A DNA stretch of 64,000 nucleotides, from assembly GCF_007197735.1 (NCBI RefSeq), contig NZ_CP041637.1, positions 2,947,001 through 3,011,000 on the forward strand, written 5' to 3'. Within the stretch, counting starts at the first letter, position 1. Every line of letters starts with the position of its first letter. A program made the position numbers and the translations under genes. Origin of the DNA: Formosa sediminum. Its GTDB lineage: Bacteria > Bacteroidota > Bacteroidia > Flavobacteriales > Flavobacteriaceae. The notes below the pieces were generated by a model. It did no database searches. It was not told the DNA's origin and saw nothing but the letters and a program-made list of their open reading frames with translations. Shown in pieces: positions 9,795 to 60,219 of the stretch.

Positions 9795-9822
9795 CCTAAA
9801 TTTTAAAACTTTTAAAAAGAAG

Positions 9823-9830
9823 CAAATTTA
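9823..9830 (-). promoter_or_regulatory. -7 promoter element of mutS2
   Basis: On the minus strand the sequence reads TAAATTTG, a match to the Bacteroidota -7 consensus TAnnTTTG, 29 bases before the mutS2 ATG. Confidence 0.5.
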
Positions 9831-9853
9831 CGGAAATAAATAAGTTAATGTCG

Positions 9854-11359: not shown

Positions 11360-11396
11360 TTTTTATTTTTTATATACGGAAAGGTAATACTATTTT

Positions 11397-11404
11397 TACT
11401 TTTG
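11397..11404 (+). promoter_or_regulatory. -7 promoter element of ung
   Basis: TACTTTTG fits TAnnTTTG and lies 19 bases before the ung ATG, in the divergent gap shared with the YfcC gene. A near-match on the minus strand (TACCTTTC, 11379-11386) may serve the YfcC gene. Confidence 0.55.
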
Positions 11405-11423
11405 AAGTTTAAGAATATAAATA

Positions 11424-12089
11424 ATGGAAAAAAATATAAATTCAGATTGGGTTGATTTATTAGAAACTGAATTTGAAAAACCCTATTTTAAAACCTTGTG
11501 GAATTTTGTTGAAGATGAATATGCTTTACATACGTGCTACCCACCAAAATCTGAAATTTTTAACGCATTCAATACGTGTGCCTTTAAAGATGTAAAAGTA
11601 GTTATATTAGGGCAGGACCCGTATCACGGACCGGGACAAGCCAATGGGTTATGTTTTTCTGTAGCAGATGGCATACCACATCCGCCTTCTTTAAAAAATA
11701 TTTTCAAAGAAATTGAAACAGATTTAGGCACACCTTATCCTGCTAGCGGAAATCTTGATCGCTGGGCAACACAAGGTATATTACTTTTAAATGCAACGCT
11801 TACTGTACGTGAACATGAAGCTGGTAGCCACCAAAACAAAGGTTGGGAAATATTTACAGATCAGATAATTTCATTAATAAGTTCTAAAAAACAGAACGTT
11901 ATTTTTTTATTATGGGGCGGGTATGCTAAAAAGAAAATAAAATTAATTGATACAACTAAGCACAACGCCCTTACATCAGGACATCCATCACCTCTGAGTG
12001 CAAACAGAGGGTATTGGTTTGGAAATAATCACTTTAGTAAGACTAACTCCCTGTTGCTGCATAATACACAGGCTGAGATTCAGTGGTAG
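11424..12089 (+). CDS. ung: uracil-DNA glycosylase
   Basis: A complete family-1 uracil-DNA glycosylase (221 residues), which removes uracil from DNA to start base-excision repair. The water-activating loop GQDPYHGPGQANGLCFSV is at about residues 62-79, the Ser/Pro loop (HPPSLKNIFKEI) follows, and the DNA-intercalating motif GHPSPLSANRG is near residue 186. Monocistronic. Its 3' end overlaps a small minus-strand reading frame. Confidence 0.97.
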   Translation: MEKNINSDWVDLLETEFEKPYFKTLWNFVEDEYALHTCYPPKSEIFNAFNTCAFKDVKVVILGQDPYHGPGQANGLCFSVADGIPHPPSLKNIFKEIETDLGTPYPASGNLDRWATQGILLLNATLTVREHEAGSHQNKGWEIFTDQIISLISSKKQNVIFLLWGGYAKKKIKLIDTTKHNALTSGHPSPLSANRGYWFGNNHFSKTNSLLLHNTQAEIQW

Positions 12090-12228
12090 TTTGTCCTTGA
12101 GAATTTAACTTTGTAATAGATTCTGATTTTTGAACCTTTTCTTGACTTGATTTATTACAACTAAAAATTAATAGTAAAATATTAATTATAATGAGTAATG
12201 TTAAAATCATCGTTATAGTTAAGAGCAT
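12043..12228 (-). CDS. possible small membrane or lipoprotein (61 residues)
   Basis: A short frame that starts with a long Leu/Ile stretch ending in FSCNKSSQ, which looks like a signal-anchor or a loose lipobox, followed by a polar Ser/Gln/Thr-rich tail. It overlaps the last 47 bases of ung in antisense. The non-overlapping part has the hydrophobic pattern of a real export signal, but there is no homologue I recognise and no clear promoter. It could equally be chance. Confidence 0.3.
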   Translation of the reverse strand: MLLTITMILTLLIIINILLLIFSCNKSSQEKVQKSESITKLNSQGQTTTESQPVYYAATGS

Positions 12229-12335
12229 AATATAAATAGGTTAATTTAAGATAAAATTAAGAATTACTTTTAACGTGGCAAATTAATTACGTTAGTTTTT
12301 ATGTAATCGATTTAATCTTATCAATTAAATTTAGA

Positions 12336-13214
12336 TTAATTACCTAAATCTAAAATTCTATCTAAAGTATAACTTATTAAACGTTCTATTAATGCACCTG
12401 GGTTTTTACTAAATTGTCCTGTTGCGCGATTTGCGATAATTGCATTTAAAGATAGGGCATTATGGCCAAGTAGGGCAGATAAACCATAGATTGCTGCCGT
12501 TTCCATTTCGAAATTTGAAATTTTAAGTCCTTCAAAACTAAAATCATGTAAACGATCATTAAGTATCGGATCCTCTGTTTTTAATCTTAAAACACGACCT
12601 TGAGGTCCATAAAAACCGCTAGCAGTAGCTGTAACTCCAGATTTGGTTTTTTCAGATGAAAATAAAGTTTCTAAAGTTTTGCTATTGGACACCAAAATAG
12701 GCTGAGATTTATTAATGTTCCATTTTGTAAACTTAACAAAAGCCTCTTCAAAAGACGTATGTCTAATTTTTTCAATATCGTAAAAATGAAGCATCCCAGA
12801 AAAATCTAAACCATACGCACTAATCGCAAAAGAATCTACAGGAATTTCTTTTTGTAAAGAACCTGAAGTTCCTACTCTAATAATATTTAGTGTTGTTAAA
12901 TGTGTTTTAAGTGTTCTTGTTTTAAAATCAATATTAACTAAAGCATCTAATTCATTTAAAACAATATCTATATTATCACAACCAATACCTGTAGAAACAA
13001 TACTAATACGCTTACCTTTATAAAAGCCTGTTTCAGTTTTAAACTCTCGTTTTTGTATTGAAAACTCTATAGTATCAAAGTGTTTAGTAATTTTACTTAC
13101 TCGATCTTGATCTCCAACTAATATAATTGTGTTGGCTATATGTTCTGGTTTTAAATTTAAATGATAAATACTACCATCTGGATTTAAAATTAATTCAGAT
13201 TCTTTAATTGGCAT
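12336..13214 (-). CDS. nucleoside phosphorylase (uridine phosphorylase-like)
   Basis: A nucleoside phosphorylase of the PNP/UDP family with about 292 residues, splitting (deoxy)nucleosides with phosphate for salvage in the cytoplasm. Recognisable blocks are the N-terminal LNPDGSIYHLNL, the phosphate/substrate segment IILVGDQDRV, STGIGCDNIDIVLNEL, RVGTSGSLQ and the C-terminal NFEMETAAIYGLSALLGH, whose Met-Glu-Thr binds ribose. I chose the ATG at 13214, which gives MPIKESEL, over the one at 13220; both lie inside the 3' end of the DUF1835 gene, so the two are translationally coupled. Base specificity cannot be decided. Confidence 0.88.
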   Translation of the reverse strand: MPIKESELILNPDGSIYHLNLKPEHIANTIILVGDQDRVSKITKHFDTIEFSIQKREFKTETGFYKGKRISIVSTGIGCDNIDIVLNELDALVNIDFKTRTLKTHLTTLNIIRVGTSGSLQKEIPVDSFAISAYGLDFSGMLHFYDIEKIRHTSFEEAFVKFTKWNINKSQPILVSNSKTLETLFSSEKTKSGVTATASGFYGPQGRVLRLKTEDPILNDRLHDFSFEGLKISNFEMETAAIYGLSALLGHNALSLNAIIANRATGQFSKNPGALIERLISYTLDRILDLGN

Positions 13215-14145
13215 AATCATTCGATTTTATAAGTTTATTTAATTTTATATCGAAATTAAAATCTTTTTTATTTACACCGCCATACACCATCTTATCAGAT
13301 AATTGATTTTCAAAGTTTTGTGTGCTATTTAATGCGTTTATTCCAGACTCATTTAACTTTAAACTGTCTTTAGATTCAATAAAAAAGATTGACAATCTAT
13401 CTATTAAACGTTCAAATTGTAAATCACCATACCCGTAAAATCCTTGATAATTTAAGGCATAACCTAATAAGTGATTTCTAGAATGTATGTCTCTGCAATT
13501 TACTAATTTAAGCACATTAAGCTCAAGTTCACTTAATCCGTTTTCAGAATTGGGAAAACGCTGTAGGTGTGCTTTTAAACAATTACTTAAATAATCAAAA
13601 GAAGAGTGTTTTACAATAAAGGGTTTAAGTAAATTATGATCTTTACCATTGTAAAGTTGCCATAAAGTACGTGCTAAATCTTTATCTTCTTCAGTTAATT
13701 TTACACGAGCTTCATAATGGTCTGTAAGTTGGGACGAACTCAATTCAGATAAGCCCTTTAATTCTTTAACACCATGTATACGGCCACTAGACACTAAAAA
13801 CACGGGTAGTTTTATTTTTTTTTGAAGCAATAAACTAATTACAGCAATAAGATTTATATGGCAAAATAAATCGTATTCAAACCATAAAATAATTTCATTA
13901 TACCGCTCACTATGATCTAGCATATCTAGATCTTGTTTTACTTTAAGAATGTCTGCTTCTATGTCATAAAATTCTTGTAAAAATTGCTGTCTAACTTCAA
14001 TAAATTTATTAGAATTTATGTTTTCTATGGTTGGTCCTTCACATAGCATTTCATGCCATGTTAAAATATCGCCTTTAAATTCGAGCTCTAGAAGATAATT
14101 AGTAAGGGCACCTCCATTAGTAATGTGTAAGGTTTTAGATTCCAT
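13204..14145 (-). CDS. DUF1835 domain-containing protein
   Basis: A 313-residue cytoplasmic protein whose N-terminus carries the DUF1835 pattern (LHITNGGALTNYLLELEFKGDILTWHEMLCEGP, residues 5-38, named here by its first and last parts). The following WFEYDLFCHINLI block, near residue 88, is also characteristic. The C-terminal half is helical with a DLQFERLIDRL segment. No function is established for the family. It sits 3 bases after the SUI1 gene and overlaps the nucleoside phosphorylase, in a tight four-gene unit. Confidence 0.85.
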   Translation of the reverse strand: MESKTLHITNGGALTNYLLELEFKGDILTWHEMLCEGPTIENINSNKFIEVRQQFLQEFYDIEADILKVKQDLDMLDHSERYNEIILWFEYDLFCHINLIAVISLLLQKKIKLPVFLVSSGRIHGVKELKGLSELSSSQLTDHYEARVKLTEEDKDLARTLWQLYNGKDHNLLKPFIVKHSSFDYLSNCLKAHLQRFPNSENGLSELELNVLKLVNCRDIHSRNHLLGYALNYQGFYGYGDLQFERLIDRLSIFFIESKDSLKLNESGINALNSTQNFENQLSDKMVYGGVNKKDFNFDIKLNKLIKSNDYAN

Positions 14146-47911: not shown

Positions 47912-48051
47912 GTTTTAATGTGTGTTTTTTATTTTTAAGTCTTCCTGAAGTATGAATACAGAAGCATTTTTTATCATCTTCTTATCATCATAATCATTAT
48001 TCAAACTTCAGTCGAACACTTATACAATTACTAACTATGTATTAATTATAA

Positions 48052-49050
48052 TTATGCTTTTACTATCATTTTACCTTTATTCTTTCCACTAAAAAGATCT
48101 ATAAAAGCTTGTGGTGTATTTTCAAAACCTTCAACAATTGTTTCAGTATATTTTAATTTTCCTTCTGATAACCAACCTGATAATTGCGTCATGGCTTCTG
48201 GAAATTTTTCAGCATAATTAGAGACAATAAAACCTTGCATTAATGCACTATTTTTAACTAAAAAAGGTTGTACACTAAGTCCTTTTGGCAATTCGGTTTT
48301 GTTATATACTGAAATTGCTCCACAGATAATAATACGAGCAAAACGATTAATGCTAAACAGAGCTGCATCGGAAATTGGTCCGCCAACATTATCAAAATAC
48401 ACATCTATACCATCAGGACATGTGTCTTTAATTGCTTGTGCCATATCTTGCGTTGTGTTATAATTAATCACATCGTCAAATCCAAAATCAGATTTTAACA
48501 TGTCTACTTTTTCGTCTGTACCGGCAATACCTACAACGCGTAATCCAAGAATTTTCCCTATTTGTCCAACAACACTTCCAACTGCTCCTGCAGCACCAGA
48601 TACCAATAAGGTTTCTCTAGATTTAGGTTTACCTATTTCTTGTAGACCTAAAAAGGCTGTTAAACCCGTCATACCTATTACCCCTAAATAAGCGCTTAAA
48701 GGCGCACGGTCTGGACTAATTTTATTTAATCCCTCTCCATTAGATATTTGTTGTGTTTTCCACGCCAACATACCCGACACATAATCACCTTCTTTAAAGT
48801 TATTGTGTTTAGAGGCTTTAACCTGTGCTACAACACCAGAGGTAATAGGCTCGTTTAAGTTAAAAGGAGGTACGTACGATTTAGCATCGCTCATACGTCC
48901 TCTTAAATAAGGATCTACAGATATGTATTTGGTTTCTAATAACAGTTCGCCATCAGAAATACTTAATGTATTATCGTCTTTTTGAAATTCAAAATCTGAT
49001 AATTTAGGCGTTCCTTCTGGTCTGCTTTTTAATATGATAGTCTGATTCAT
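48052..49050 (-). CDS. NADP-dependent MDR oxidoreductase (CurA/PTGR-like)
   Basis: A 332-residue zinc-free medium-chain reductase. The N-terminal NQTIILKSRPEGTP and DPYLRGRMSDAKSY, and the Rossmann motif VSGAAGAVGSVVGQIGK match the leukotriene B4 dehydrogenase/CurA group, which reduces the alpha,beta double bond of enals and enones. That reaction fits the electrophile-defence setting. The nitroreductase gene precedes it by 11 bases. Confidence 0.92.
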   Translation of the reverse strand: MNQTIILKSRPEGTPKLSDFEFQKDDNTLSISDGELLLETKYISVDPYLRGRMSDAKSYVPPFNLNEPITSGVVAQVKASKHNNFKEGDYVSGMLAWKTQQISNGEGLNKISPDRAPLSAYLGVIGMTGLTAFLGLQEIGKPKSRETLLVSGAAGAVGSVVGQIGKILGLRVVGIAGTDEKVDMLKSDFGFDDVINYNTTQDMAQAIKDTCPDGIDVYFDNVGGPISDAALFSINRFARIIICGAISVYNKTELPKGLSVQPFLVKNSALMQGFIVSNYAEKFPEAMTQLSGWLSEGKLKYTETIVEGFENTPQAFIDLFSGKNKGKMIVKA

Positions 49051-49061
49051 AATTTAATGTT

Positions 49062-49694
49062 TTAATCTATTATTTTAAATAATTGAGCCGTACTTTTTCT
49101 TACTTTAACTTGATTAGCTAACCAATCATTTGTCTCATCTCTATAACCAATTGGTAATAAAATGGCACTTCGCAATCCTTGTTCTTTTAAGCCTAAAATG
49201 GCATCTACTGCATCAGGATCAAAACCTTCCATTGGTGTAGCATCTACACCTTCGTAAGCAGCAGCTGCAATTGCATAACCAAATGCGATATAGGCTTGTT
49301 TTGCGGCATGTGTAAAATTCTCTTCGGCATCTTTTTGCGGGTAAGTGTTTAACAACATTTGTCTGTAATTTTCGAACCCTTCATTTTCATAGCCACGTAC
49401 TTTATTAGTTAAATCGAAAACTTCATTAATGCGGTCTGCTGTATAAGTATCCCAAGCTGCAAATACTAATAAGTGAGAACAATCTGTAACTACAGATTGG
49501 TTCCAAGCCACAGGCTTAATTTGGGCTTTTATATCTGGATTAGTTACGACTAAAACTTCAAATGGTTGTAAACCACTAGAAGTAGGAGCTAAACGTATAG
49601 CTTCTAAAATACGATCTAATTTTTCTTGTGGTACAACTTCACCATTCATTGCTTTAGTAGCATATCTCCAATTTAATTTATCTAATAATTCCAT
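49062..49694 (-). CDS. NAD(P)H-dependent oxidoreductase, nitroreductase family
   Basis: A 210-residue FMN flavoprotein similar to NfsB. LNWRYATKAMNG, then RLAPTSSGLQPFEVLVV form the FMN-binding start, and DATPMEGFDPDAVDAILGL and LPIGYRDETND lie at the C-terminus. It reduces nitro compounds and quinones by two electrons. A paralogue lies at 62187-62846. It is 30 bases after the TetR gene and likely under its control. Confidence 0.92.
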   Translation of the reverse strand: MELLDKLNWRYATKAMNGEVVPQEKLDRILEAIRLAPTSSGLQPFEVLVVTNPDIKAQIKPVAWNQSVVTDCSHLLVFAAWDTYTADRINEVFDLTNKVRGYENEGFENYRQMLLNTYPQKDAEENFTHAAKQAYIAFGYAIAAAAYEGVDATPMEGFDPDAVDAILGLKEQGLRSAILLPIGYRDETNDWLANQVKVRKSTAQLFKIID

Positions 49695-49724
49695 GTGTAA
49701 TAATTTGTATTAATTAAGTGTTTT

Positions 49725-50303
49725 TTATAGTTTAATACTCGCCCAAGCGGCTTGGTAAGCTTCGTTTAAGTGTGCTGTAGTTATTTTAAAATCGCCTCGT
49801 TTATGTGCATTTAATAAAAAAGCCAAAGGGTAAATACTAAAAGCATATAAGAGTTGGTGGGAAAGTGGCTTAATTACCTGTTCTGCAATACCACGGTCCC
49901 ATAAATCGAGTAGGGGAGTTAAGTTTTTAATTCCATCTTGTCGGCTTGCTGTATCTATCATTGGTGTGTTTTCGCATTGTGATAAGAAAAACCCTTTCTC
50001 AATATCCTGTAATTTATAATCTGCCATACGTCTCCAAACCCTTTCAAAGCCAGACTCAACAGTTAGAGTGGGCGAATAAGTTTCGAAAGCATATTGCATA
50101 TATTCCGCTTTTACTTCTTTATAAACCTGATTTACTAAATCTTGCTTGTTTTCAAAATAAATGTAAATTGTAGCAGGAGACACGTTTGCCATTTTGGCTA
50201 TTTTAGACATGGGTGCCGCGTGAAATCCTTGGTTATTTACCAAATGAATGGTAGCTTTAACCAATGCTGCTCTTTTAATTTCACTTTTCTTTAAAACTGG
50301 CAT
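49725..50303 (-). CDS. TetR/AcrR family transcriptional regulator
   Basis: A 192-residue repressor. The N-terminal helix-turn-helix is clear: KRAALVKATIHLVNNQGF, MSKIAKMANVSPATIYIYFENKQDLV. The ligand-binding part has no recognisable specificity. The start at 50303 (MPVLKKSE) is chosen because a TACCTTTG promoter element (50322-50329) lies inside the longer frame. It is the first gene of the minus-strand stress cluster and probably controls itself and the oxidoreductases. Divergent from kdgK. Confidence 0.92.
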   Translation of the reverse strand: MPVLKKSEIKRAALVKATIHLVNNQGFHAAPMSKIAKMANVSPATIYIYFENKQDLVNQVYKEVKAEYMQYAFETYSPTLTVESGFERVWRRMADYKLQDIEKGFFLSQCENTPMIDTASRQDGIKNLTPLLDLWDRGIAEQVIKPLSHQLLYAFSIYPLAFLLNAHKRGDFKITTAHLNEAYQAAWASIKL

Positions 50304-50321
50304 GTTTTTTAATTTATGAGT

Positions 50322-50381
50322 CAAAGGTATAAAAAAAGAATAAACATTCATTTTTTAAGAATGAGTTTAAGATGAGTTTAA
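50322..50381 (-). promoter_or_regulatory. promoter and candidate operators of the tetR-led cluster
   Basis: On the minus strand TACCTTTG (50322-50329) is the -7 element. Upstream are TAAACATTCATTT (50341-50353), close to the palindrome at 4736-4751, and a 10-bp direct repeat ATGAGTTTAA (50361-50370 and 50372-50381). Any of these may be the TetR site. Confidence 0.45.
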
Positions 50382-50462
50382 CGTATTTCTTAATAGAAAC
50401 ATTTTAAATCATTTTAGGAAAGCATATATTTATCTGTTAAAAACAAAAACAAACTTTTAATA

Positions 50463-51467
50463 ATGAACAGAATAGTAACATTTGGCGAAGTCTTAATGCG
50501 CCTGTCTCCATTGGGGAATAAAAAAATGAAGCAAACCAACTTATTAGAATATTATTTTGGAGGAACAGAGATAAACGTATCAATTTCATTAGCGAACTTT
50601 GGGAATAAAGTAAAACACATTTCATGCGTGTCTGACGATTTTATAGGCGAAACCGCTGTTGGATATTTAAGACAGTACAATGTAGATACTAGAGATATAT
50701 ACAGAACAAACAGACCTTTAGGTATGTATTTTTTAGAAGTTGGAGCCGTAATGCGACCAAGTACAATTGCATATAACCGTTCTAATTCTGCATTTTCGGG
50801 AGTTACTCCAGATATGGTAGATTGGGAAAAAGCCCTAGCAAAAGGAAATTGGTTTCACTGGACAGGAATTACACCCGGATTATCTAGAGGCGCTTACGAA
50901 ACTTTAAAAGAAGGTTTAAAAGTCGCTAAAGCCAAAGGATTTACCATTTCCTCAGATCCGACATATAGAAGTGGTTTATGGAAATATGGTGTAGATCCTA
51001 AAGATGCTATTCAGGATTTAATGCAATATGTTACCATATTTATTGGAGGTGTTAATGAAATTAATGAAATTCTAGGCACAACATATGGTTACGATAACGA
51101 CGATTTTATTGCTGCTAGTAAAGCCTTAATTGAAAAATATCCAAATGTTGAAAAAGTATTTGATAAAATTAGAATTGCCATTAATGCATCTTGGCAAAAA
51201 ATTAAAGCCAGAATGTGGAATGGAGTAACATTTAAAGAAACCGAAGCTATAGAAATTACTCATATAGTAGACCGTATTGGGACTGGCGATGCCTTTGCAG
51301 CAGGAATAATTTACGGCTTATTAAACTACGACGATTTTAAAGCTATGGAATTTGCCAGCGCAGCTTGCGCATTAAAACACACATTTCCGGGAGATATTAA
51401 TTATGCCACAGTAAAAGATGTAGAACATTTATTATCTGGAAATACTGGCGGACGTGTGGTACGATAA
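50463..51467 (+). CDS. kdgK: 2-dehydro-3-deoxygluconokinase (PfkB family)
   Basis: A 334-residue PfkB-family sugar kinase. The start VTFGEVLMRLSPLG and the YFGGTEINVSISLANFG block are those of KDG kinases, which phosphorylate 2-keto-3-deoxygluconate from alginate or pectin breakdown. The C-terminal DRIGTGDAFAAGIIYGLL carries the catalytic Asp and anion hole. No KDPG aldolase gene is visible next to it. It is monocistronic and divergent from the TetR gene. Confidence 0.88.
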   Translation: MNRIVTFGEVLMRLSPLGNKKMKQTNLLEYYFGGTEINVSISLANFGNKVKHISCVSDDFIGETAVGYLRQYNVDTRDIYRTNRPLGMYFLEVGAVMRPSTIAYNRSNSAFSGVTPDMVDWEKALAKGNWFHWTGITPGLSRGAYETLKEGLKVAKAKGFTISSDPTYRSGLWKYGVDPKDAIQDLMQYVTIFIGGVNEINEILGTTYGYDNDDFIAASKALIEKYPNVEKVFDKIRIAINASWQKIKARMWNGVTFKETEAIEITHIVDRIGTGDAFAAGIIYGLLNYDDFKAMEFASAACALKHTFPGDINYATVKDVEHLLSGNTGGRVVR

Positions 51468-51904
51468 AATTAAAAGAGTGCGAGAGCATTCTTAATTTTC
51501 TATTTTACATAATATAAATTATAGAACATATTATAACAATTAACGGAATAGCGCATTTTTGAGCTATTTGACATAATTACAGATATAACAACACCCAAGT
51601 GTTTTATATCGGTAGTGATTATGTACAAGTTAATTGTGGGTTGTTAGAAGTTAATTATACGATTACAACTGTGTTCGAGCGTAGTCGAGAACAAACAAAC
51701 TATGCTAAAGCATTCGTGGTATCATACTTAATTACGCATTGTTTCCAGAATTGATTTAAACGATTACAACGTGATGGTTTATACTTATGTATAAATCGTG
51801 TATTTGGAAAATTGTGTTGGGAATTTTATTTTATTGGATTCTCGTGGATTAATATTTTTTTCTTTATGATAATTTTTATAATCTTTATTGTATTAAATCT
51901 GGAA
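51468..51904. other. intergenic region, no gene; repeat fragment
   Basis: A 437-base AT-rich stretch with no supported gene. It contains a fragment of the interspersed repeat family seen at 57.9-58.7 kb (GTGTTCGAGCGTAGTCGAGA at 51671-51690) and the word ACGATTACAAC twice (51659-51669 and 51770-51780). Confidence 0.5.
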
Positions 51905-54016
51905 TTAAATTAATTTATATCTGTCCGAACGCATTTTAAATGCTTTCTCACTTCCTTCCATCACATCACAAATCTCCTTCTTTATTTCTTCTCTTTCTAC
52001 TGTACCTGAATGTAAAACAGATGTGAATTGACTTTCAGAATCCATTGAGATAATATATTCAGCATCGCCGTTAACAGGAATATTTGCGTTATGGGTAACT
52101 ACAATAATTTGTCTACTACCTTTAGCTACTTTTAATCTATCTACTATTAAATCATAGACTAATCTATTATCTAAATCATCTTCTGGTTGGTCTAATAATA
52201 AAGGAATAGTTCCAAATGAAAGTAAAAAAGTTAATATTGCTGTAGTACGTTGTCCTGCGGAAGCAGTAGACAACGATTTAAACGTAATGGCGTTTTCAGG
52301 TTTATATTCTACAACTACTTCATCCTCTGGCATAAATAATTCTAATTCATCCATACCGGAATCAGTTATACTCTTAACAGCATTTTTAAAATGTCCACCA
52401 ACTATATCAGCATTATCATCAAAATAATTTTTTCGGAATACATCTTTTACTTCTTTTATTTTCTGTTCTACATTACCTTGAAAACATAACTCTTTTAGCT
52501 TTTTAATATCTTCTTCAAAAGATGTGTCTTTACCTATAATCTTACGGACTTGTAACTCGAAACTTGTTTGATTTCTGAAAGGTTTAATTTTTACTCTAAT
52601 TTTATCATCAGTTATATTATCATCGATAAACGTCTTACGTTTATCAGTTATATCTTTAGATAATTGAACAAATTCTTCCTGATATTTGGCTCTTTCCATA
52701 CGTTCTAAACGTTCTTTTCCTTTTATAATATCGAGTGCAATTAATTCTTCTTCCTTAACTTCAATATCTTTTGATATAGCTTCATATTGGTCTATGTTTT
52801 CTACGCCTTCTCCTTCAAGTTCAGCTTTCTTTACATTATAATTAGTTATCGCTGTAGTATATGCTTGCTTCCATTGTGAAGATGTTAATTTAGTTTCTAA
52901 ATCAGTTTTTATTTGTAATATAGATGTTATTAGTGCTTCATACTCCGTTGCTTTTGTAGATAGAGCTTCTTTTACTTCAGATAAAGTTGTTTTAATTTCT
53001 TCTCTATTACTTTCAGAAAAACTTACTTCATCTGGTTGTTCAATATCAAACTCCGTTTTTAGACCATCTAATTGATTAACTAATACTTGAATTTGTTCTT
53101 TATAATCGTTTAGTAATTTCTCTTCTTCCGCAAACGCTTTCTTTTCAGCCATTAATTCCTTAATACCTGCCTTATCTAAAGTCTCTAACTTCTTTTTTAA
53201 GTCATCAATATCAGTTATTAATTTAAGTCTTGATTTTAAACTTACTTGATGTGTTCTGATAGTGCTACAAGACTTCAAGAAATTCTCTTTAGCAACCTCC
53301 CTTTTATCCTTTAGTTGACTGATTTCCTCAACATTTAAATCAATTCTATCTAATAAAGCATTCGGGTCTTTTGAAATTTCAAATATTTGCTTTTGAGAAT
53401 ACTGTTCAAACTCTAAAAAGTTTAAGAACTCTTCATCCTCAATCTCTACCCAAACCCCTTCAACTAATTTATGTATTTTAATAGTTTGATTAAATGAAGA
53501 ATTTATTTTTGATGCTTTTACACGATATAAAAAGTCTTTACGAACAAACTCTACTTCAATGGTAGATACATCATTAAACATACCTATGGACTCTGTTCCT
53601 CTTACTTCATTCGTTTTATAGAAACTATTATGTTCTTTTACTAAATCAGCAAAATTCTCAAGATTACTTGTTCGGTTAAATACACCTCTAATAAACCTTA
53701 AAATACTTGATTTACCACTACCACGACCACCAATTATAGCATTTAATTGTGGATTGAAACCAATTTTAAAAGGTTCTGTTCCTGTTAATGTAGTATTTGT
53801 TATGGTTATTGATTTTATCCAAAATTCTGGCTTATCCGTTACGGAAGTTGCATCATTAAAATCATTAACTACTCTATGTGATGGTAATAAAAACGCTTGT
53901 CTTAATCCTTCTAAAGAAGGTGTTTCGTCCATTTTTATAAACGTGAATCTTGAACCAATACCATTTAAACCGTGTTTAGAATTTTTAGGTTCGTGTGGAT
54001 TATCTGAAAAAGTCAA
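51905..54016 (-). CDS. C-terminal AAA/SMC-like ATPase half of the TrlF-type gene
   Basis: The ATPase half, up to 703 residues when read from a TTG at 54016. FTFIKMDETPSLEGLRQAF is the family linker. Walker A is IIGGRGSGKSSILRF near residue 95, a long coiled coil spans about 250-460, and the ABC-like signature ASAGQRTT is followed by Walker B PLLLDQPEDDLDNRLV near 605 and a final VVTHNANIPV switch. It is open upstream to about 54173 without an ATG, so as it stands it is a remnant unless frameshifting or a TTG start is used. The first ATG is at 53935. Confidence 0.7.
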   Translation of the reverse strand: MTFSDNPHEPKNSKHGLNGIGSRFTFIKMDETPSLEGLRQAFLLPSHRVVNDFNDATSVTDKPEFWIKSITITNTTLTGTEPFKIGFNPQLNAIIGGRGSGKSSILRFIRGVFNRTSNLENFADLVKEHNSFYKTNEVRGTESIGMFNDVSTIEVEFVRKDFLYRVKASKINSSFNQTIKIHKLVEGVWVEIEDEEFLNFLEFEQYSQKQIFEISKDPNALLDRIDLNVEEISQLKDKREVAKENFLKSCSTIRTHQVSLKSRLKLITDIDDLKKKLETLDKAGIKELMAEKKAFAEEEKLLNDYKEQIQVLVNQLDGLKTEFDIEQPDEVSFSESNREEIKTTLSEVKEALSTKATEYEALITSILQIKTDLETKLTSSQWKQAYTTAITNYNVKKAELEGEGVENIDQYEAISKDIEVKEEELIALDIIKGKERLERMERAKYQEEFVQLSKDITDKRKTFIDDNITDDKIRVKIKPFRNQTSFELQVRKIIGKDTSFEEDIKKLKELCFQGNVEQKIKEVKDVFRKNYFDDNADIVGGHFKNAVKSITDSGMDELELFMPEDEVVVEYKPENAITFKSLSTASAGQRTTAILTFLLSFGTIPLLLDQPEDDLDNRLVYDLIVDRLKVAKGSRQIIVVTHNANIPVNGDAEYIISMDSESQFTSVLHSGTVEREEIKKEICDVMEGSEKAFKMRSDRYKLI

Positions 54017-54114
54017 TATTGCTAAATCGTTTTCTTTGGATAGCCTAACTGTATTATACCATTTTTTTGCAGTAGCTTCATCAATTGGTAATGGCGAGTT
54101 CTCGTAATAATCAT

Positions 54115-54699
54115 TTAGATAAGGTAGAACTGTTTTAATATTAGCATTGGTAAATTCATTCTCATAAAATAAAATGCTTTATGTACAACTTGTACTGCAT
54201 TAATATCAACACGTTTATAAAAATCTATTAAGTTTTGATTACCTATTGATTCTAAACCATTGAACTCATCAATATGCGCTGGAATAACTATTCCTTGGTT
54301 TTTAAAAGCTATATCTGCTATTTCGTTAATACTCTTATCTGTTTTAGCCTCTTGAGCACCAAAATCATCTCTTTTAATTTCACATTGAATTAAAAAATCT
54401 CCAACATCTGTAGCACTTTTAGAAGGGTCAAATAATACTAATAAATGAATTTTAGAACTATCACAAGTAATTTCAACACCAGGAAATATGGTTAAATTAG
54501 TCTCTTTTGCAACTTCTTGAATTTCCTCAATACCATTAGGACTATTATGGTCAGTAACCGCAACACAATCTAACCCCTGTTCTATTGCTCTGTCAACCCA
54601 TTGTTGAGCTGTTACCTCTCTATCTTGAAAACATTTACTTGCTCTTGTATGTAAATGTAAATCGCACTTATACCACCTTGCTCCATTAAAATCTTGCAT
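54115..54699 (-). CDS. PHP-domain half of the TrlF-type gene (truncated)
   Basis: The metal-dependent phosphoesterase part. Starting at 54699 (MQDFNGARW) it has the PHP motifs CDLHLHTRAS, VAVTDHNSPNGIEE, FPGVEITC, HLLVLFDP and VIPAHIDEF. After HKAFYF the frame runs into 15 unrelated residues and a stop, caused by the 5-bp duplication. The longer frame to 54735 adds 12 residues without homology. The domain alone might still fold. Confidence 0.75.
   Translation of the reverse strand: MQDFNGARWYKCDLHLHTRASKCFQDREVTAQQWVDRAIEQGLDCVAVTDHNSPNGIEEIQEVAKETNLTIFPGVEITCDSSKIHLLVLFDPSKSATDVGDFLIQCEIKRDDFGAQEAKTDKSINEIADIAFKNQGIVIPAHIDEFNGLESIGNQNLIDFYKRVDINAVQVVHKAFYFMRMNLPMLILKQFYLI
54165..54175. repeat. 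5-bp tandem duplication causing the TrlF frameshift
   Basis: TAAAATAAAAT on the plus strand: two perfect TAAAA copies (equivalently AAAAT twice). One copy restores the reading frame across the PHP-ATPase junction. Confidence 0.85.
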
Positions 54700-55047
54700 A
54701 TATAATAGCCCTATTGTTGTCCTTGAATTTATCACTTTTAAAAACCATAAATTATTTATTATCGTTTTTAGTATATAATCTAATTCAAAGGTAATTTTTT
54801 TAAAAGGAAATAAATTGGGAATTCTATAATTTGACTAAGAATTTAGTAAAAAAAATTCCCACTCCCCTCCTACATTCCTTCGAGCATTCTCCATACCCCC
54901 CCCTATTTTAAGAGGGATTCCCGAACAATCCCCGAAGGGTATTCGAGGAAACACCTTGATAATCAGTTATTTTACCGCTTTGAAATCTGTTTCCTTTGAG
55001 GGTTTAGTTATTTTTTTTCTTATCTTAGAATGGTGTAACCTATTAAA
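54700..55047. other. intergenic region with C-rich and hairpin-prone core
   Basis: A 348-base stretch with no supported gene between the TrlF-type and S24 genes. The centre (54860-54955) is C-rich on the plus strand (CATACCCCCCCCTA) and has imperfect inverted words around TTCGAGCATTC and GGGTATTCGAGG, suggesting a worn interspersed repeat. Confidence 0.45.
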
Positions 55048-55650
55048 CTACATCTTAATCACTTCTGCAACAACACCCTGAATTTTAAAATCTGTAGTTA
55101 ATATTATGGGCTGATGCTTTGTATTGGTGGAATGTGGTTTCAGTACAATAGTACTACCGTTATGTCTAAACTCTTTAACCGTAGCTTCGTCATCAATTAA
55201 AGCAAGCACTAAATCACCAGTTTCAGCAGTCTGTTGGCGTTTAATAAGTAATAAATCGCCGCTATCTATACCTTTAGTATTCATAGAATCTCCTGTGGCT
55301 CGCAACAAAAAATAATCTGATGGGTTTTTAACCAATTGGGTTGCTATGGGGATTTGAGCCTCAATATGTTCTTCTGCAAAGGTAGGTAAACCACAAGCGA
55401 CAGCACCAATTAAGGGAATGTTTACGGTATCACTATCAGGGTTTTTTGGACGAAACACAGCATCGTTAACATCTAACAAATCTCGTGCTTCAACGTTTAA
55501 TATATGTGCAATTTCAAACAACAATTCAAGACTGGGTTGCCTCCTATTTTGTACATAAGCATTCACCATATTGTAACTCTTATTTAGCTTTTCGGCCAAC
55601 CACGTTTGCTTGATGCCTTTGTCTTCTAATACCTCCTTAATACGATTCAT
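55048..55650 (-). CDS. LexA-like transcriptional repressor (XRE HTH + S24 peptidase)
   Basis: A 200-residue self-cleaving repressor. Residues 1-60 are an XRE helix-turn-helix (IKQTWLAEKLNKSYNMVNAYVQNRRQPSL, quoted as landmark). The S24 domain has the cleavage site Ala85-Cys86-Gly87 in GAVACGLPTF, the nucleophile Ser122 in TGDSM and the general base Lys159 in EATVKEF. Such repressors cleave themselves with RecA after DNA damage. It is divergent from the radical-SAM gene, with a palindrome in the shared gap, so it probably controls that pair. A phage-type repressor is the alternative, but no phage genes are near. Confidence 0.92.
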   Translation of the reverse strand: MNRIKEVLEDKGIKQTWLAEKLNKSYNMVNAYVQNRRQPSLELLFEIAHILNVEARDLLDVNDAVFRPKNPDSDTVNIPLIGAVACGLPTFAEEHIEAQIPIATQLVKNPSDYFLLRATGDSMNTKGIDSGDLLLIKRQQTAETGDLVLALIDDEATVKEFRHNGSTIVLKPHSTNTKHQPIILTTDFKIQGVVAEVIKM

Positions 55651-55673
55651 ATCAACAGTTTGATTGCCAGATA

Positions 55674-55681
55674 CAAATATA
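55674..55681 (-). promoter_or_regulatory. -7 promoter element of the S24 repressor gene
   Basis: The minus strand reads TATATTTG, a TAnnTTTG match, 24 bases before the ATG. The palindrome at 55705-55723 falls where the -33 region would be. Confidence 0.55.
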
Positions 55682-55704
55682 CATAATTAGTTAATACTAT
55701 ATCA

Positions 55705-55723
55705 TAATATGAGATACATATTA
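55705..55723. promoter_or_regulatory. palindromic operator candidate in the S24/radical-SAM gap
   Basis: TAATATG-AGATA-CATATTA is a perfect 7-bp inverted repeat with a 5-base centre, in the 159-base gap between the divergent genes. It is the best candidate for the S24 repressor's own site. Confidence 0.5.
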
Positions 55724-55777
55724 ACACTATTATGAGTTTATTTTAGTTAAAGTTTATTTCCATATACATTTAGATTG

Positions 55778-55785
55778 TATCTTTA
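55778..55785 (+). promoter_or_regulatory. -7-like element of the radical-SAM gene
   Basis: TATCTTTA is one base off TAnnTTTG and lies 24 bases before the ATG at 55810. Confidence 0.4.
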
Positions 55786-55809
55786 CCCCTCAATTATAAA
55801 CACTTAAGA

Positions 55810-57072
55810 ATGTCTTTTGAACGTGTACAAGAAAAGTTAAATATCCTTGCCGATGCCGCCAAATACGATGTGTCTTGCTCGTCTAGCGGTAGTAATAGAA
55901 CCAATACTAATAAGGGTTTAGGCAATGCCTCTAATTCTGGTATTTGCCATACCTATACCGAAGATGGACGTTGTGTGTCTTTACTTAAAATACTGCTCAC
56001 CAACCATTGTATTTTTGATTGTGCCTATTGTGTTACGCGTAAAAGCAACGATATTAAACGGGCGGCATTTCAAGTGCAAGAGGTTGTAGATTTAACCATA
56101 AATTTTTACAGACGTAATTATATTGAAGGGCTGTTTTTAAGTTCAGGTATTTTTAAAAGCGCCGATTATACCATGGAACGGTTAGTGGCTGTGGCTAAGA
56201 AATTACGATTAGAGGAAAACTTTAACGGCTATATTCATTTAAAATCTATTCCCGGAGCTAGTGACGAACTTATGCGGGAAGCCGGTTTGTATGCAGACCG
56301 CTTAAGTGTTAATATTGAAATCCCTACAAAACAAGGCTTAAAGCTTCTTGCTCCAGATAAAAACAGAGCCGATTTTATTAAGCCTATGGAAAAGGTTAAG
56401 AATGAAATCATTCAATATAAAAATGAAAAGAAACTGATTAAAAGCACGCCTAAATATGCGCCTGCTGGACAAAGCACGCAAATGATTGTAGGTGCTAGTG
56501 GCGAAAATGATATGCAAATCATGTACACCTCTAATTACTTTTATAAAAACTTTAATTTAAAACGGGTGTACTATTCTGGTTATGTGCCTATTAGTTACGA
56601 TACGCGTTTACCACAAATAGGTACACCTGTACCCATGTTACGAGAAAACAGATTGTACCAAACCGATTGGTTATTACGCTTTTATGGCTTTAATATTGAA
56701 GAAATTTTAAATGAACAACATCAACATTTAGATTTAGATATCGATCCCAAATTAGGCTGGGCCTTGCGTAATTTACACGAATTTCCGGTAGACGTTAATA
56801 CTGCCGATAAACGCATGTTGGCAAGAATTCCGGGATTAGGGATGAAATCGGTTTATAAAATATTACATGCCAGACGTTACAGACAATTAAATTGGGAACA
56901 TTTAAAAGCCATAGGTGTGTCTTTAAATCGGGCAAAGTATTTCTTGATTTGTGCCTCGAACACCTTTGAAACTCGCGATTTAACGCCCGAAAAAATTAAA
57001 GGTTTAATCTTGCAAAACTCTAAAAGTAAGTATACCGATATGTTTAGTAATCAGTTAAATCTTTTTGGATAG
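55810..57072 (+). CDS. putative DNA modification/repair radical SAM protein
   Basis: A 420-residue radical-SAM protein of the group named putative DNA modification/repair radical SAM protein (TIGR03916). The cluster Cys are 67, 71 and 74 in CIFDCAYC, and YIEGLFLSSGIF and GYIHLKSIPGA follow. The C-terminus has a helix-hairpin-helix DNA-binding region: DVNTADKRMLARIPGLG, then KILHARRYRQLN. The substrate is not known. The next gene codes for its usual partner, and the neighbouring S24 repressor suggests damage control. Confidence 0.92.
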   Translation: MSFERVQEKLNILADAAKYDVSCSSSGSNRTNTNKGLGNASNSGICHTYTEDGRCVSLLKILLTNHCIFDCAYCVTRKSNDIKRAAFQVQEVVDLTINFYRRNYIEGLFLSSGIFKSADYTMERLVAVAKKLRLEENFNGYIHLKSIPGASDELMREAGLYADRLSVNIEIPTKQGLKLLAPDKNRADFIKPMEKVKNEIIQYKNEKKLIKSTPKYAPAGQSTQMIVGASGENDMQIMYTSNYFYKNFNLKRVYYSGYVPISYDTRLPQIGTPVPMLRENRLYQTDWLLRFYGFNIEEILNEQHQHLDLDIDPKLGWALRNLHEFPVDVNTADKRMLARIPGLGMKSVYKILHARRYRQLNWEHLKAIGVSLNRAKYFLICASNTFETRDLTPEKIKGLILQNSKSKYTDMFSNQLNLFG

Positions 57073-57079
57073 ACATCTT

Positions 57080-57844
57080 ATGGAAACCACCTTGATTTAC
57101 GATGGCTCTTATGATGGCTTTTTAACGGCGGTGTTTACGGCTTTCGAAATGAAATTAAAAGCTGTAACTATGGTAACCTCCGAACGGTTTCAGCAGCCCT
57201 TATTTGGCACCTACGAAACCGTAATAACAGACCAAGAAAAAGCCAATCGCATTTGGGCAGGACTGAAAAAGAAAATGACTGCTAACGAATTACGACGGTT
57301 TTATTACGCCTTTTTAAGTGAAAGGCCTACTATGGAAGACACTTTATATCAAGCCATAGTATATGTATTTGCGTCTAAAACAAACGTAGCCTCAGATTTT
57401 ACTAACACGCATATTTTGGAAGTGTCTAAACTCACCAAACATGTAGGGCGCGAAAAACACAGAATGGAAGCCTTTGTACGATTTAAACTAACAAAAGATG
57501 GTGTCTATTTTGCCAATATAGAACCCGATTTTAATGTGCTACCGCTTATAAAAAATCATTTTAAAAAACGCTATGCCGACCAAAAATGGCTGATTTACGA
57601 TTTAAAACGACAGTATGGCATCTATTATGATTTAGAACAGGTAGACGTGATTAGCTTAGAATTTGATACAGATTTCGACCCGTCTAAAACATCGACTGCA
57701 TTGTTTGCAGAGGTTGAATTAGAATTTCAGCAATTGTGGAATGATTATTTTAAGAGTACAAATATTGCATCTCGAAAAAACATGAAACTACATATTAAAC
57801 ATGTGCCTAAACGCTATTGGAAATATTTAAGTGAGAAGCAGTAG
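57080..57844 (+). CDS. TIGR03915 family putative DNA repair protein (DUF4130)
   Basis: A 254-residue protein of the DUF4130/TIGR03915 family, the regular partner of the radical-SAM protein. ETTLIYDGSYDGFLTAVFTAFE opens the domain, RFQQPLFGTYE follows, and the C-terminal KRYWKYLSEKQ ends it. Larger homologues carry a uracil-DNA glycosylase-like domain after this one; here it is absent. I use the ATG at 57080, 7 bases after the radical-SAM stop; the longer frame begins with TTG inside that gene. Function unproven. Confidence 0.9.
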   Translation: METTLIYDGSYDGFLTAVFTAFEMKLKAVTMVTSERFQQPLFGTYETVITDQEKANRIWAGLKKKMTANELRRFYYAFLSERPTMEDTLYQAIVYVFASKTNVASDFTNTHILEVSKLTKHVGREKHRMEAFVRFKLTKDGVYFANIEPDFNVLPLIKNHFKKRYADQKWLIYDLKRQYGIYYDLEQVDVISLEFDTDFDPSKTSTALFAEVELEFQQLWNDYFKSTNIASRKNMKLHIKHVPKRYWKYLSEKQ

Positions 57845-57870
57845 AACGATATTAGTATATTGTTTTCTTA

Positions 57871-58040
57871 TAATATTGTGTGTTTAAAATAAAAGCTTCT
57901 CGACTCTACTTCGACTTCGCTCAGTACAGGCTGCTCGAAGACCGATGTAATGACATATTATGTTTTTAAAGGGTGTTCGAGCATTAGTGAGAAAGCATAG
58001 TAAGATGCTTACAAAGCTTGCGAACGAAGTTTGAGGAGAA
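57871..58040. repeat. interspersed repeat, copy A (upstream of GIY-YIG)
   Basis: About 170 bases nearly identical, apart from a 3-base indel and a few substitutions, to copy C at 58501-58668. Landmarks are TTCTCGACTC (57897), CTTCGACTTCGCTCAGTAC, GGCTGCTCGAAGACCG, GTGTTCGAGCATTAGTG and AAGCATAGTAAGATGCTTAC. The two copies are direct repeats about 630 bases apart and bracket the GIY-YIG gene. Confidence 0.85.
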
Positions 58041-58089
58041 TAATGATTTTGTTACTGTTAAAATTCTTAGGGTTATTTATAATACAAAC

Positions 58090-58185
58090 TTCTCGACTCT
58101 ACTTCGACTTCGCTCAGTACAGGCTGCTCGAAGACCGATTAAATCATGTGTTGAGTTTTTCATGGTGTTCGAGCGGAGTCGAGAA
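58090..58185. repeat. interspersed repeat, copy B, bounded by 10-bp inverted ends
   Basis: A 96-base form of the repeat with perfect 10-bp terminal inverted repeats: TTCTCGACTC (58090-58099) and GAGTCGAGAA (58176-58185). The left half equals copies A and C; the middle is shorter. It ends 10 bases before the GIY-YIG stop codon. Confidence 0.8.
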
Positions 58186-58195
58186 CCATTTAACT

Positions 58196-58501
58196 TTACT
58201 TTTTATTCTTAAAATGTGAATCATTTTTACATTCTGATAATCTTGGTAATAGTTCCCAATTGTCATTTATTACAGCTTGCTTCTTATCATGAGACCATTT
58301 CTTTATTTTCTGTTCGTAATAATAAGCATCTTCAATATTTAGAAAATACTCCTGAAAAACCAAATGAACAGGTAATCTTGTTTTAGTATAATTTGCCCCT
58401 TTCCTAGATTGATGCTCAATAAGCCTTTTTACTAAATCCCTAGTACTTCCTGTATAGTAAGTACCATCTGAACATTGTAATATATATAGATATCCAGGCA
58501 T
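58196..58501 (-). CDS. small GIY-YIG nuclease family protein
   Basis: A 101-residue single-domain GIY-YIG protein (YhbQ/UPF0213-like). GYLYILQCSDGTYYTGSTRDLVKRLIEH gives the two motifs (YLYI and YYTG) and the catalytic Arg, and YYYEQKIKKWSHDKKQA carries the later Glu. The family is presumed to nick or cut DNA, but cellular roles are largely unknown. The gene is tightly enclosed: copy B of the repeat ends 10 bases after its stop and copy C begins at its start codon. That arrangement suggests that the gene and repeats moved or multiplied together. Confidence 0.9.
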   Translation of the reverse strand: MPGYLYILQCSDGTYYTGSTRDLVKRLIEHQSRKGANYTKTRLPVHLVFQEYFLNIEDAYYYEQKIKKWSHDKKQAVINDNWELLPRLSECKNDSHFKNKK

Positions 58502-58668
58502 AATGTTGTGTGTTTAGAATAAAAGCTTCTCGACTTTACTTCGACTTCGCTCAGTACAGGCTGCTCGAAGACCGGTGCAATGACATATTACGTTTAAGGG
58601 TGTTCGAGCATTAGTGAAAAAGCATAGTAAGATGCTTACGAAGCTAGTGAACGAAGTTTACCGAGAAC
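58501..58668. repeat. interspersed repeat, copy C
   Basis: The partner of copy A, in the same orientation. It begins at the GIY-YIG start codon with TAATGTTGTGTGTTTAGAAT and holds TTCTCGACTT (58527), the GGCTGCTCGAAGACCGG block, GTGTTCGAGCATTAGTG and an end reading CCGAGAAC. The 58669-58791 remainder of the gap is AT-rich with no gene. Confidence 0.85.
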
Positions 58669-58791
58669 TTAAGAATGTAATTATTATGTCAATAAATTTA
58701 ATGATTTCTACACTTAACTAATCTAAAAGAGCAAAGTCGAGAACTAAACATATGATAATTAGTATAACATAAAAACAATATAATGCTATAA

Positions 58792-59391
58792 CTAATAATA
58801 CAATCTAAAATCTAGTAATTTACAGACGGCATAATGTCTTTGGTGTAATTCTTCAACTACCTCAAACATATCATCATCTTCATTAAATAAATTAAAAAAC
58901 ACCTTATCTAGATTTGCACTAGAGATGCCATTATAAGAATTTCCATAACCAGACACCCCTTTGGCGCCTGTAATATCTAAAAAATACTGTGCTTCCTCGT
59001 CGTCTAAATCTAAGACTTTGGCATTAGAAAAATGTAGAATCTTTCCGCTTAATCGGCCTTCAAAAAGTTCGGCAATCTCTTGTAAACTATAGTAATAATC
59101 GTTTAAACAAATGCTGTTGGCTTCTCCAGGCATCACCAGGTATATAATTTCATAATCCTTAAAATTATGGTCGTCTAAAACCAAACTGTTTAAACGTTCC
59201 TCTAAGCCTTCAATGGTGTCGCAGGTATTATATATACTTGCAATGCCGAAATTTATAACCAAATGTTCCAAACTTTCTTGAGCTTCAGTAACACTTTCGG
59301 TGTCTACATCAGGAACAGCTTCTAAGCAATAAATGAAATACTCTGAATCTGTTGAGTGGTTTTGAGGATATTTTGAATGTCTATCTAACAA
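58792..59391 (-). CDS. DUF6642-like protein of unknown function
   Basis: A 199-residue acidic cytoplasmic protein. FIYCLEAVPDVD, then IIYLVMPGEANSICLNDYYYSLQEIAELF, then ILHFSNAKVLDLDDEEAQYFLDITGAKGVSGY follow the order I remember for DUF6642, in which a CHAT/caspase-like fold is plausible: a small beta strand, a His, and a conserved G-x-x-x-x-GY end. The usual catalytic Cys is not evident (SNAK replaces an S-C motif), so activity is doubtful. It is alone between repeat copies C and D. Confidence 0.6.
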   Translation of the reverse strand: MLDRHSKYPQNHSTDSEYFIYCLEAVPDVDTESVTEAQESLEHLVINFGIASIYNTCDTIEGLEERLNSLVLDDHNFKDYEIIYLVMPGEANSICLNDYYYSLQEIAELFEGRLSGKILHFSNAKVLDLDDEEAQYFLDITGAKGVSGYGNSYNGISSANLDKVFFNLFNEDDDMFEVVEELHQRHYAVCKLLDFRLYY

Positions 59392-59483
59392 GCTTATAAA
59401 TTTATATAATTGTATGTATGGCGCGAAATTAAAACAACGCTTCTAGTTTTTACATTGTTTTTAGATAAAATTAAATTAAAGGT

Positions 59484-59625
59484 TTCTCAACTCTACTTCG
59501 ACTTCGCTCAGTACAAGCAGCCCGCAGACCGTTATAATGAATACTATACGTTTAGGGTATTCGCACATATTTAAGACAGCATAATACGATATTGCAGAAG
59601 CAAGGAAACGCAGTTTACCCCTTTT
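59484..59625. repeat. interspersed repeat, degenerate copy D
   Basis: A worn copy: TTCTCAACTCTACTTCGACT (59484-59503), TCGCTCAGTACAAGCAGCC, AGACCG, then GGGTATTCGCACAT and AAACGCAGTTTACC. It fills most of the gap between the DUF6642-like gene and the phosphatase gene. Confidence 0.7.
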
Positions 59626-59646
59626 CTAGCTGAACCTCCCTCCTAA

Positions 59647-60219
59647 CTATAATTCTGCTTTTAATTTGGATTTCAATAATGCTACATCTAAAGATTCTAG
59701 CAACGGAATTAAATTAGGGTACATTTTTTTATGATAACCAAAACGTTTGTCGGTAAATTCTGCAATTGCTTTATCTTTACTCCAGTTTTCGAATACCATC
59801 CGAGATGCCGCAACAATAGCTCCTGTACGGTCTGAACCATGCCAACAATGTATTAATACAGGTTGCTCAGCCTGTTGTATGGTTTGTAATGCCGTAAAAA
59901 TATCATCTACATCTAATTCTCCAGCTTTTAGTGGTAAATTATATAACTCTAAATCGAGCCCTTTTAGTTTTTGTTCATCTGTCGGTTTTCGTCTAAAATT
60001 TATAACCGATTGAATCCCTAATGATTCTAGGTCTTTCATCCCTTTTTTAGAAGGTTGTTCAGAGCGATACAAATTATCATTCAGTTTATAAAGATTATGA
60101 AAATGGGACGATTCTATCTGTTGAAACGGTAATTCTTGCGCATGAGATGTTGGTACGAAACATACAACACTTAACATGAATAAAAAGATAACCCGATTGT
60201 TTTTAAAAGTAGTTTGCAT
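59647..60219 (-). CDS. exported tyrosine/dual-specificity phosphatase-like protein
   Basis: A 190-residue phosphatase of the protein-tyrosine phosphatase fold. The P-loop HCWHGSDRTGAI is near residue 124, with the nucleophile Cys and Arg in place. An N-terminal signal (RVIFLFMLSVVCFVPTSHAQ) indicates export; I use the ATG at 60219 because the longer frame from 60255 adds 12 polar residues in front of the signal. YRSEQPSKKGMKDLESLGIQSVINFR matches the entry of periplasmic DSP-like proteins, which may act on phospholipid or sugar phosphates. Substrate unknown. Confidence 0.88.
   Translation of the reverse strand: MQTTFKNNRVIFLFMLSVVCFVPTSHAQELPFQQIESSHFHNLYKLNDNLYRSEQPSKKGMKDLESLGIQSVINFRRKPTDEQKLKGLDLELYNLPLKAGELDVDDIFTALQTIQQAEQPVLIHCWHGSDRTGAIVAASRMVFENWSKDKAIAEFTDKRFGYHKKMYPNLIPLLESLDVALLKSKLKAEL

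Follow-up and report, generated by a model that had tools for sequence, protein, structure and literature searches.

A trlF pseudogene of Formosa sediminum as the probable last remnant of a mod-res-trlF restriction operon

The trlF gene takes its name from trlR-trlF-trlG, the "temperature restriction locus" of Photorhabdus laumondii (PMC7554251). There, trlF is annotated as a histidinol phosphatase. The operon is connected with an arrest of growth at 36 °C, with mutations found in the RecG-like trlG and none in trlF (PMC7554251). The same paper links trlF to trlG and to temperature, leaves its role open, and mentions one plasmid in which type I restriction genes lie inside a homologous trl operon (PMC7554251). 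The Photorhabdus gene is likened here to the NCBIfam family TrlF (NF045780) by name alone, and its membership is assumed. That the name-giving trlF was found in a temperature-restriction operon counts against the reading of trlF given below.

Ppl (NCBIfam NF042955) has the same domain order as TrlF. A review treats Ppl as a system of one gene, and describes Ppl of E. coli as an NTP-inhibited 3’-5’ exonuclease that requires 3’-OH ends (PMC12904381). By contrast, the TrlF of the six closest relatives described below is housed in a restriction operon. A literature search for TrlF with PHP and ATPase domains found no paper, and none of the papers listed in searches on Ppl or PHP-ATPase defence described trlF behind mod-res.

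Type III restriction systems are usually described as having two genes. The relatives add a PHP-ATPase as a third gene to mod and res, and in the DNA studied here trlF alone remains. PrrC and RloC, effectors embedded in restriction loci, resemble TrlF in their general description as nuclease-ATPases carried with restriction genes. They differ from it in being anticodon nucleases and in the catalytic domains they use.

The window, which is the whole stretch of DNA that was analyzed, is 64,000 nucleotides in length. The features discussed here are collected in Table 1.

Table 1. Features of the trlF locus and its surroundings in the window.
Feature	Position	Strand	Basis
trlF pseudogene (PHP + SMC/Rad50-like ATPase) with one frame break	51905..54699	-	NF045780 matched by both halves; six relatives of 929 aa
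N-terminal open frame: first part of PHP, then about 20 out-of-frame codons	54115..54699	-	Open frames; PHP Pfam PF02811
C-terminal open frame: end of PHP (SDNPH motif) and ATPase; about 80 codons without ATG	51905..54178	-	
Frame-shifting tandem duplication of 5 bp (2.4 copies in the period-5 run)	54164..54175		
Switch of closest relative (recombination seam)	54153..54161		Maximum chi-square and AU tests; local scan ties 54190-54153
Decayed scrap of the type III res 3’ end	Core 54726..54754; weaker alignment about 54708-54848	-	Alignment to res tails of relatives
Variable segment of the cargo slot	51846..54856		Homology to congener G001 up to 51845 and again from 54857
Left flank, sugar-kinase-like gene (own naming), 85-97% identical in four congeners	50463..51467	+	
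Right flank, LexA-like HTH + S24 regulator	55048..55650	-	

The two open frames together cover nearly the whole of the TrlF profile, one after the other. The N-terminal half aligns with positions 1-193 of NF045780 and the C-terminal half with positions 203-944 (197-944 in the whole-genome search). The C-terminal half alone scores 491 bits, above the curated cut-off of 350, and the N-terminal half alone scores 152 bits. Against the Ppl profile the halves reach 281 and 83 bits, far below the cut-off of 1000, and the intact relative at locus L002 also remains below it with 345 bits. PADLOC names both halves Ppl (PDLC02208), with matches to positions 4-188 and 213-891 of an 894-position profile.

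The motifs are likewise divided between the frames. In motif columns of 28 homologues, the first frame holds DLHLHT, VTDHN, FPGVEIT, and PAHIDE, and the second holds SDNPH, which is the last PHP motif, followed by GGRGSGKSS, STASAGQR, LLLDQPEDD, and VVTHN. These are read as the PHP metal motifs and the Walker A, signature, Walker B, and H-loop motifs. The TrlF set of metal and ATPase motifs is thus complete across the two frames. A continuous protein of about 930 amino acids is not encoded, since the frame is broken at 54164-54175. The gene has also lost its restriction neighbors. Judged from its sequence, it is a TrlF-family pseudogene and not a working member. The first-pass annotation had called it TrlF-type and probably defensive, and the family matches and the gene neighbors in relatives back that assignment.

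An AlphaFold2 model of the intact L002 protein has a mean pLDDT of 80.3 and a pTM of 0.63. By our own reading of the model, the PHP fold spans approximately residues 1-260. The break, at approximately residue 177, would fall ahead of the last predicted strands of this fold at 225-227 and 251-255. The best PDB matches of the model are JetABC, MukBEF, Rad50, and SMC ATPases; RNase AM and PolC, matched through their PHP domains, rank lower. With the break inside the PHP domain, each half is an incomplete enzyme.

Positions 54165-54174 read TAAAATAAAA, so the tandem TAAAA repeat reported in the first-pass annotation is present; the maximal period-5 run around it is 54164-54175. The upstream frame runs on the minus strand from 54699 and terminates at 54115. 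In the downstream frame a stop occupies 54181-54179, a TTG occurs at 54016, and no ATG comes before 53932, which bears out the stop and the ATG-less stretch of about 80 codons noted earlier.

A genome scan with the downstream half returned 30 loci. Two with short matches (L030 and L031) were dropped, and the remaining 28 (L002-L029) comprise 27 different proteins, those of L021 and L029 being identical. All 28 carry trlF as a single open frame, complete in 26 and cut by contig ends in L009 (5’) and L018 (3’). The six closest relatives come from Polaribacter, Winogradskyella, Aequorivita, Nonlabens, Gillisia, and Salegentibacter records. Each encodes 929 amino acids without the extra 5 bp, and all six show a 5-bp gap when aligned at the duplication site. 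The L002 protein is 85-96% identical to the other five, and the downstream half of the window gene is 87-94% identical to the six. Around the break, L004 and L025 have the same bases as the window with one copy of the 5-bp unit. The claim that this is one broken gene thus finds strong support in the TrlF profile, the fused relatives, the 5-bp alignment gap, and the split motif set. The 5-bp duplication carries weight because the frame is broken and the duplication is absent from the relatives.

TrlF was also sought in records of mobile elements. Of 50,697 phage records, 7 matched, none over more than 80% of the query. Among 72,556 plasmid records, 1108 contain matches to the L002 TrlF, all at less than 60% identity, and 814 of these are predicted to be conjugative. 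A single place covering at least 80% of the query was found in 101 plasmid records.

In all six close relatives mod, res, and trlF lie in a row with trlF third, directly behind a Res of 881 amino acids. At L002 the neighbors were confirmed with Pfam ResIII and N6_N4_Mtase, and PADLOC assigns both proteins to type III. A tree of the ATPase part from the window and 28 relatives places the window in a nine-row clade (support 100/99), and all eight other members have a restriction subunit directly upstream. Overall, a restriction subunit directly precedes trlF in at least 10 of the 28 loci, eight of type III and two of type I. Too little upstream sequence is available at L009 and L020, so the base is 26 loci, and not all other neighbors were annotated.

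The genome of the window has no mod or res beside its trlF. With the Mod of L003 as query, no match was found in this genome, and matches were found in both others searched (G031 and the query source, G098). The Res query had no match in this genome or in five congeners and was found in the control, G031. An additional Res search of this genome, run without a control, was also empty.

A short piece of res does persist upstream of trlF. The stretch 54754-54726 has 25 of 29 identities (score 38) to the res tail of five of the six relatives, and the tail of L025 gives a shorter match (score 33). The match is short, and both its orientation and its place are right. Against L002, none of 1000 simulated spacers scores as high, nor does any of 1012 segments of 150 bases from elsewhere in the window. 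With gentler gap costs the alignment extends over 54848-54708 (L004), 54847-54711 (L006), and 54763-54711 (L002), and none of 500 simulations reaches each score. With the res scrap upstream and mod and res not found, trlF appears to be the leftover of a dismantled operon. It had been considered that trlF moved as a solo cassette exactly at its gene borders, the alignment ending 7 bp before the ATG; this idea was dropped once the res scrap was found. Homology of the trlF 3’ spacer to L005, suggested by a blastn extension, was unconvincing on direct alignment.

Worth recording are some observations on the relatives' operons. The gene 3’ of trlF varies among L002-L006 and L025 (at about 8112-13600 of these loci). 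L002 has a PDC-M62A/B pair there, of which L003 and L004 carry homologues; L005 has a HEC-05-like protein, with a homologue in L025; and in L006 the protein is AbiD-like. The region 3’ of trlF in these operons resembles a separate cargo slot. The mod of the mod-res-trlF locus L022 (L022:910-2576) is present as two separate frames that both match Mod, and may be broken or divergent. In congener G005, hsdM- and hsdS-like genes, recognized by eye, are followed by a 791-amino-acid PHP-ATPase that scores below the TrlF cut-off (L066:326-6080). The next gene encodes 105 amino acids without a family match, and an HsdR match lies approximately 4 kb further on. On our reading of these genes, a type I restriction locus would here too be accompanied by a PHP-ATPase.

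The site of trlF, by comparison with congeners, is a slot whose cargo differs between them. In G001 the cargo is SIR2-HerA, with 2.4 kb of additional sequence separating the shared right spacer from the LexA-like gene. IetAS occupies the interval from the kinase-like to the LexA-like gene in G003. In G002 the same left flank is followed by genes for two proteins without a PADLOC match, one of 1081 amino acids that matches an NTPase below threshold and one of 344 amino acids. This pair is followed by a right-spacer segment of weaker similarity, and the 14 kb examined does not include the LexA-like gene. G004 shares the left flank and has a different right neighbor, and G005 has no close orthologue of the kinase-like gene (best 40%). 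Elsewhere in the window, a short intergenic repeat occurs in several copies at 57896-58684 and 59465-59537, with matches of about 43-130 bp, and is also present in G001, G002, and G004. No RNA family reached the gathering threshold in 48000-60000.

The trlF gene of the window changes its closest relative within the PHP domain. In the PHP part (54699-54187), dS from the window is 0.335 for L005, 0.814 for L002, and 0.647 for L003. In the ATPase part it is 0.203 for L002, 0.252 for L003, and 0.767 for L005. Informative sites were those at which L002 and L003 agree and differ from L005; sites where the window matches neither were left out. On the 5’ side of the seam the window is L005-like at 48 of 64 sites, and on the 3’ side 247 of 274 sites are L002/3-like. 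Close to the seam the division is sharper, with 34 of 38 sites L005-like from 54373 to 54184 and 22 of 23 L002/3-like from 54153 to 54088. Sites 5’ of 54373 are mixed (11:11), and clear L005-likeness is limited to 54373-54161. Maximum chi-square places the break at 54161|54153 with a value of 126.3, which none of 2000 permutations reached (336 sites, 54178-54164 skipped). A local scan with 25 sites on each side ties over three neighboring positions from 54190 to 54153. In the AU test, a grouping of the window with L002 and L003 is rejected for the PHP part (p = 0.003; p = 0.004 for its 3’ 223 bp), and a grouping with L005 is rejected for the ATPase part (p of about 4e-48; p = 2e-6 for its 5’ 554 bp).

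A single event in the lineage of the window would explain both switches, and the window is probably the recombinant lineage; two recombination events in other lineages may also have produced the pattern. L006 was considered as a means of deciding which lineage had recombined and was dropped. At the 34 sites of 54373-54179 where L002 and L003 agree with each other and differ from a base shared by the window and L005, it is L002/3-like at 13, like the window and L005 at 16, and different at 5. A pattern seen elsewhere in the alignment concerns L004 and L025, which are identical over trlF alignment columns 301-600 and only 75-89% identical per block past column 1050. This points again to mosaic trlF alleles in these operons.

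Between the duplication and the best seam there are 3-11 bp, in a gene of 2795 bp. The chance of one falling that near is approximately 1.5% by our own arithmetic, calculated after the fact and for one seam, and this proximity suggests that the duplication arose with the recombination. Independent slippage that came to lie beside the seam by coincidence has about an even chance of being the right account of this one step. The window contains 70 tandem duplications of 5 bp, where 20 first-order Markov simulations gave 76 on average (63-91). By number alone such a duplication is ordinary in this AT-rich DNA, which favors slippage. The duplicated unit also lies on the L005-like side, so that recombination is not needed to make it. 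The distance to the seam is what speaks for a joint origin.

The break appears to be young. Against the six relatives, dN/dS is 0.07-0.14 in both parts of trlF, and no second lesion was seen in the gene. In the ATPase part the branch of the window carries 20 amino-acid and 39 silent changes, and the branches of L002 and L003 together carry 12 and 49, a weak excess of amino-acid changes on the window branch (Fisher p = 0.10). This pattern fits little time without selection and a recent loss of function. The recent silencing put forward in the first-pass annotation is thus consistent with the low dN/dS of about 0.1 and the single lesion, and draws little from the amino-acid excess. Orphaning from the restriction operon, together with the adjacent seam, explains the break at least as well as the silencing of a costly gene; the first-pass annotation had noted neither. 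Since decay has gone further in the res scrap than in trlF, mod and res were probably lost first.

If the duplication were an assembly or sequencing error, the gene would be intact in the living strain. The intact state of the relatives examined is what would be expected in that case. The genome is a single contig rated 100% complete, and an exact 5-bp tandem duplication is unlike the usual single-base homopolymer error. The loss of the operon partners also makes real decay plausible. An error is accordingly improbable.

Still less probable is a phase-variable switch, in which TAAAA copies are gained and lost by slippage and the gene is turned on and off. In favor of such a switch, the lesion is an exact tandem duplication in a gene otherwise in good order. 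The tract has only 2.4 copies of the unit, however, and known phase-variable tracts are longer. The 64-kb window holds no period-5 run of three or more perfect copies, and its number of 5-bp duplications does not exceed expectation. The six close relatives, all of other genera, have one copy. The reversible slippage proposed earlier is poorly supported by these copy numbers. Least credible of all, in spite of the good conservation of both halves, is that the locus makes two working proteins, or one by programmed frameshifting, since the break cuts the PHP domain, the second frame lacks an ATG for about 80 codons, all 28 relatives examined are fused (for which reason, along with the cut domain, two separate conserved genes were rejected), and no classical slippery heptamer was seen by eye.

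Other broken copies of the family exist. Among 397 Flavobacteriaceae genomes, 32 have a TrlF match at E <= 1e-30 and 28 of these exceed the cut-off. By our own count of the family copies listed, 5 of 35 are broken, the window copy included. Four further broken copies, at loci L094, L098, L099, and L101, show an in-frame stop, an insertion, and two frame breaks. By genome, the lesions are an in-frame TAG in G053, a frame break on contig 20 of G260, a frame break in G419, and an insertion in G439 that, by our reading, resembles an IS3-type element. The G429 copy, a fragment, was left out of the broken ones, those of G005 and G207 score under the cut-off, and draft assemblies may add errors. The idea that TrlF is more prone to breakage than other genes was dropped. 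Among the listed matches of an HsdR control, one has an in-frame stop, and weak, split matches would fall outside those listed, so that no rates are compared.

The locus is thus very probably a trlF pseudogene that is the last remnant of a mod-res-trlF operon in the slot between the kinase-like and LexA-like genes, with the tail of res left behind and a mosaic trlF knocked out, subsequently or jointly, by the duplication. The order of events would be as follows. A type III mod-res-trlF operon would once have filled the slot. Mod and nearly all of res would have been deleted first, leaving the decayed res tail. TrlF would have outlasted its partners, and two divergent alleles would have recombined inside the PHP domain. 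The 5-bp tandem duplication, after or within the recombination event, would then have knocked out trlF. The intact protein, by analogy with Ppl of E. coli, would be a PHP exonuclease under the control of an SMC/Rad50-like ATPase, attacking free DNA ends made by the neighboring restriction enzyme. With its restriction partner absent, trlF would lose its use and could decay.

As a broken gene, the trlF of the window is ordinary; the seam and the res scrap are its informative parts. Four things can be read together here: a slot that changes its cargo between species, an operon missing its mod and res, a mosaic effector, and an inactivating lesion. Of the 26 loci with upstream sequence, at least 10 have a PHP-ATPase directly behind a restriction subunit. 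This pairing is testable, and would carry the Ppl model, in which a nuclease works on free 3’ ends, over to ends produced by the host's own restriction enzyme. More broadly, it is conceivable, though on balance rather unlikely, that TrlF is a restriction-coupled effector that degrades type I- or type III-made ends under nucleotide-pool control, that its alleles are swapped within the PHP domain, that copies without a partner decay, and that the window is an intermediate caught in this course. If so, the window would show the partner deleted, the allele seam still visible, and the inactivating duplication left at the seam.
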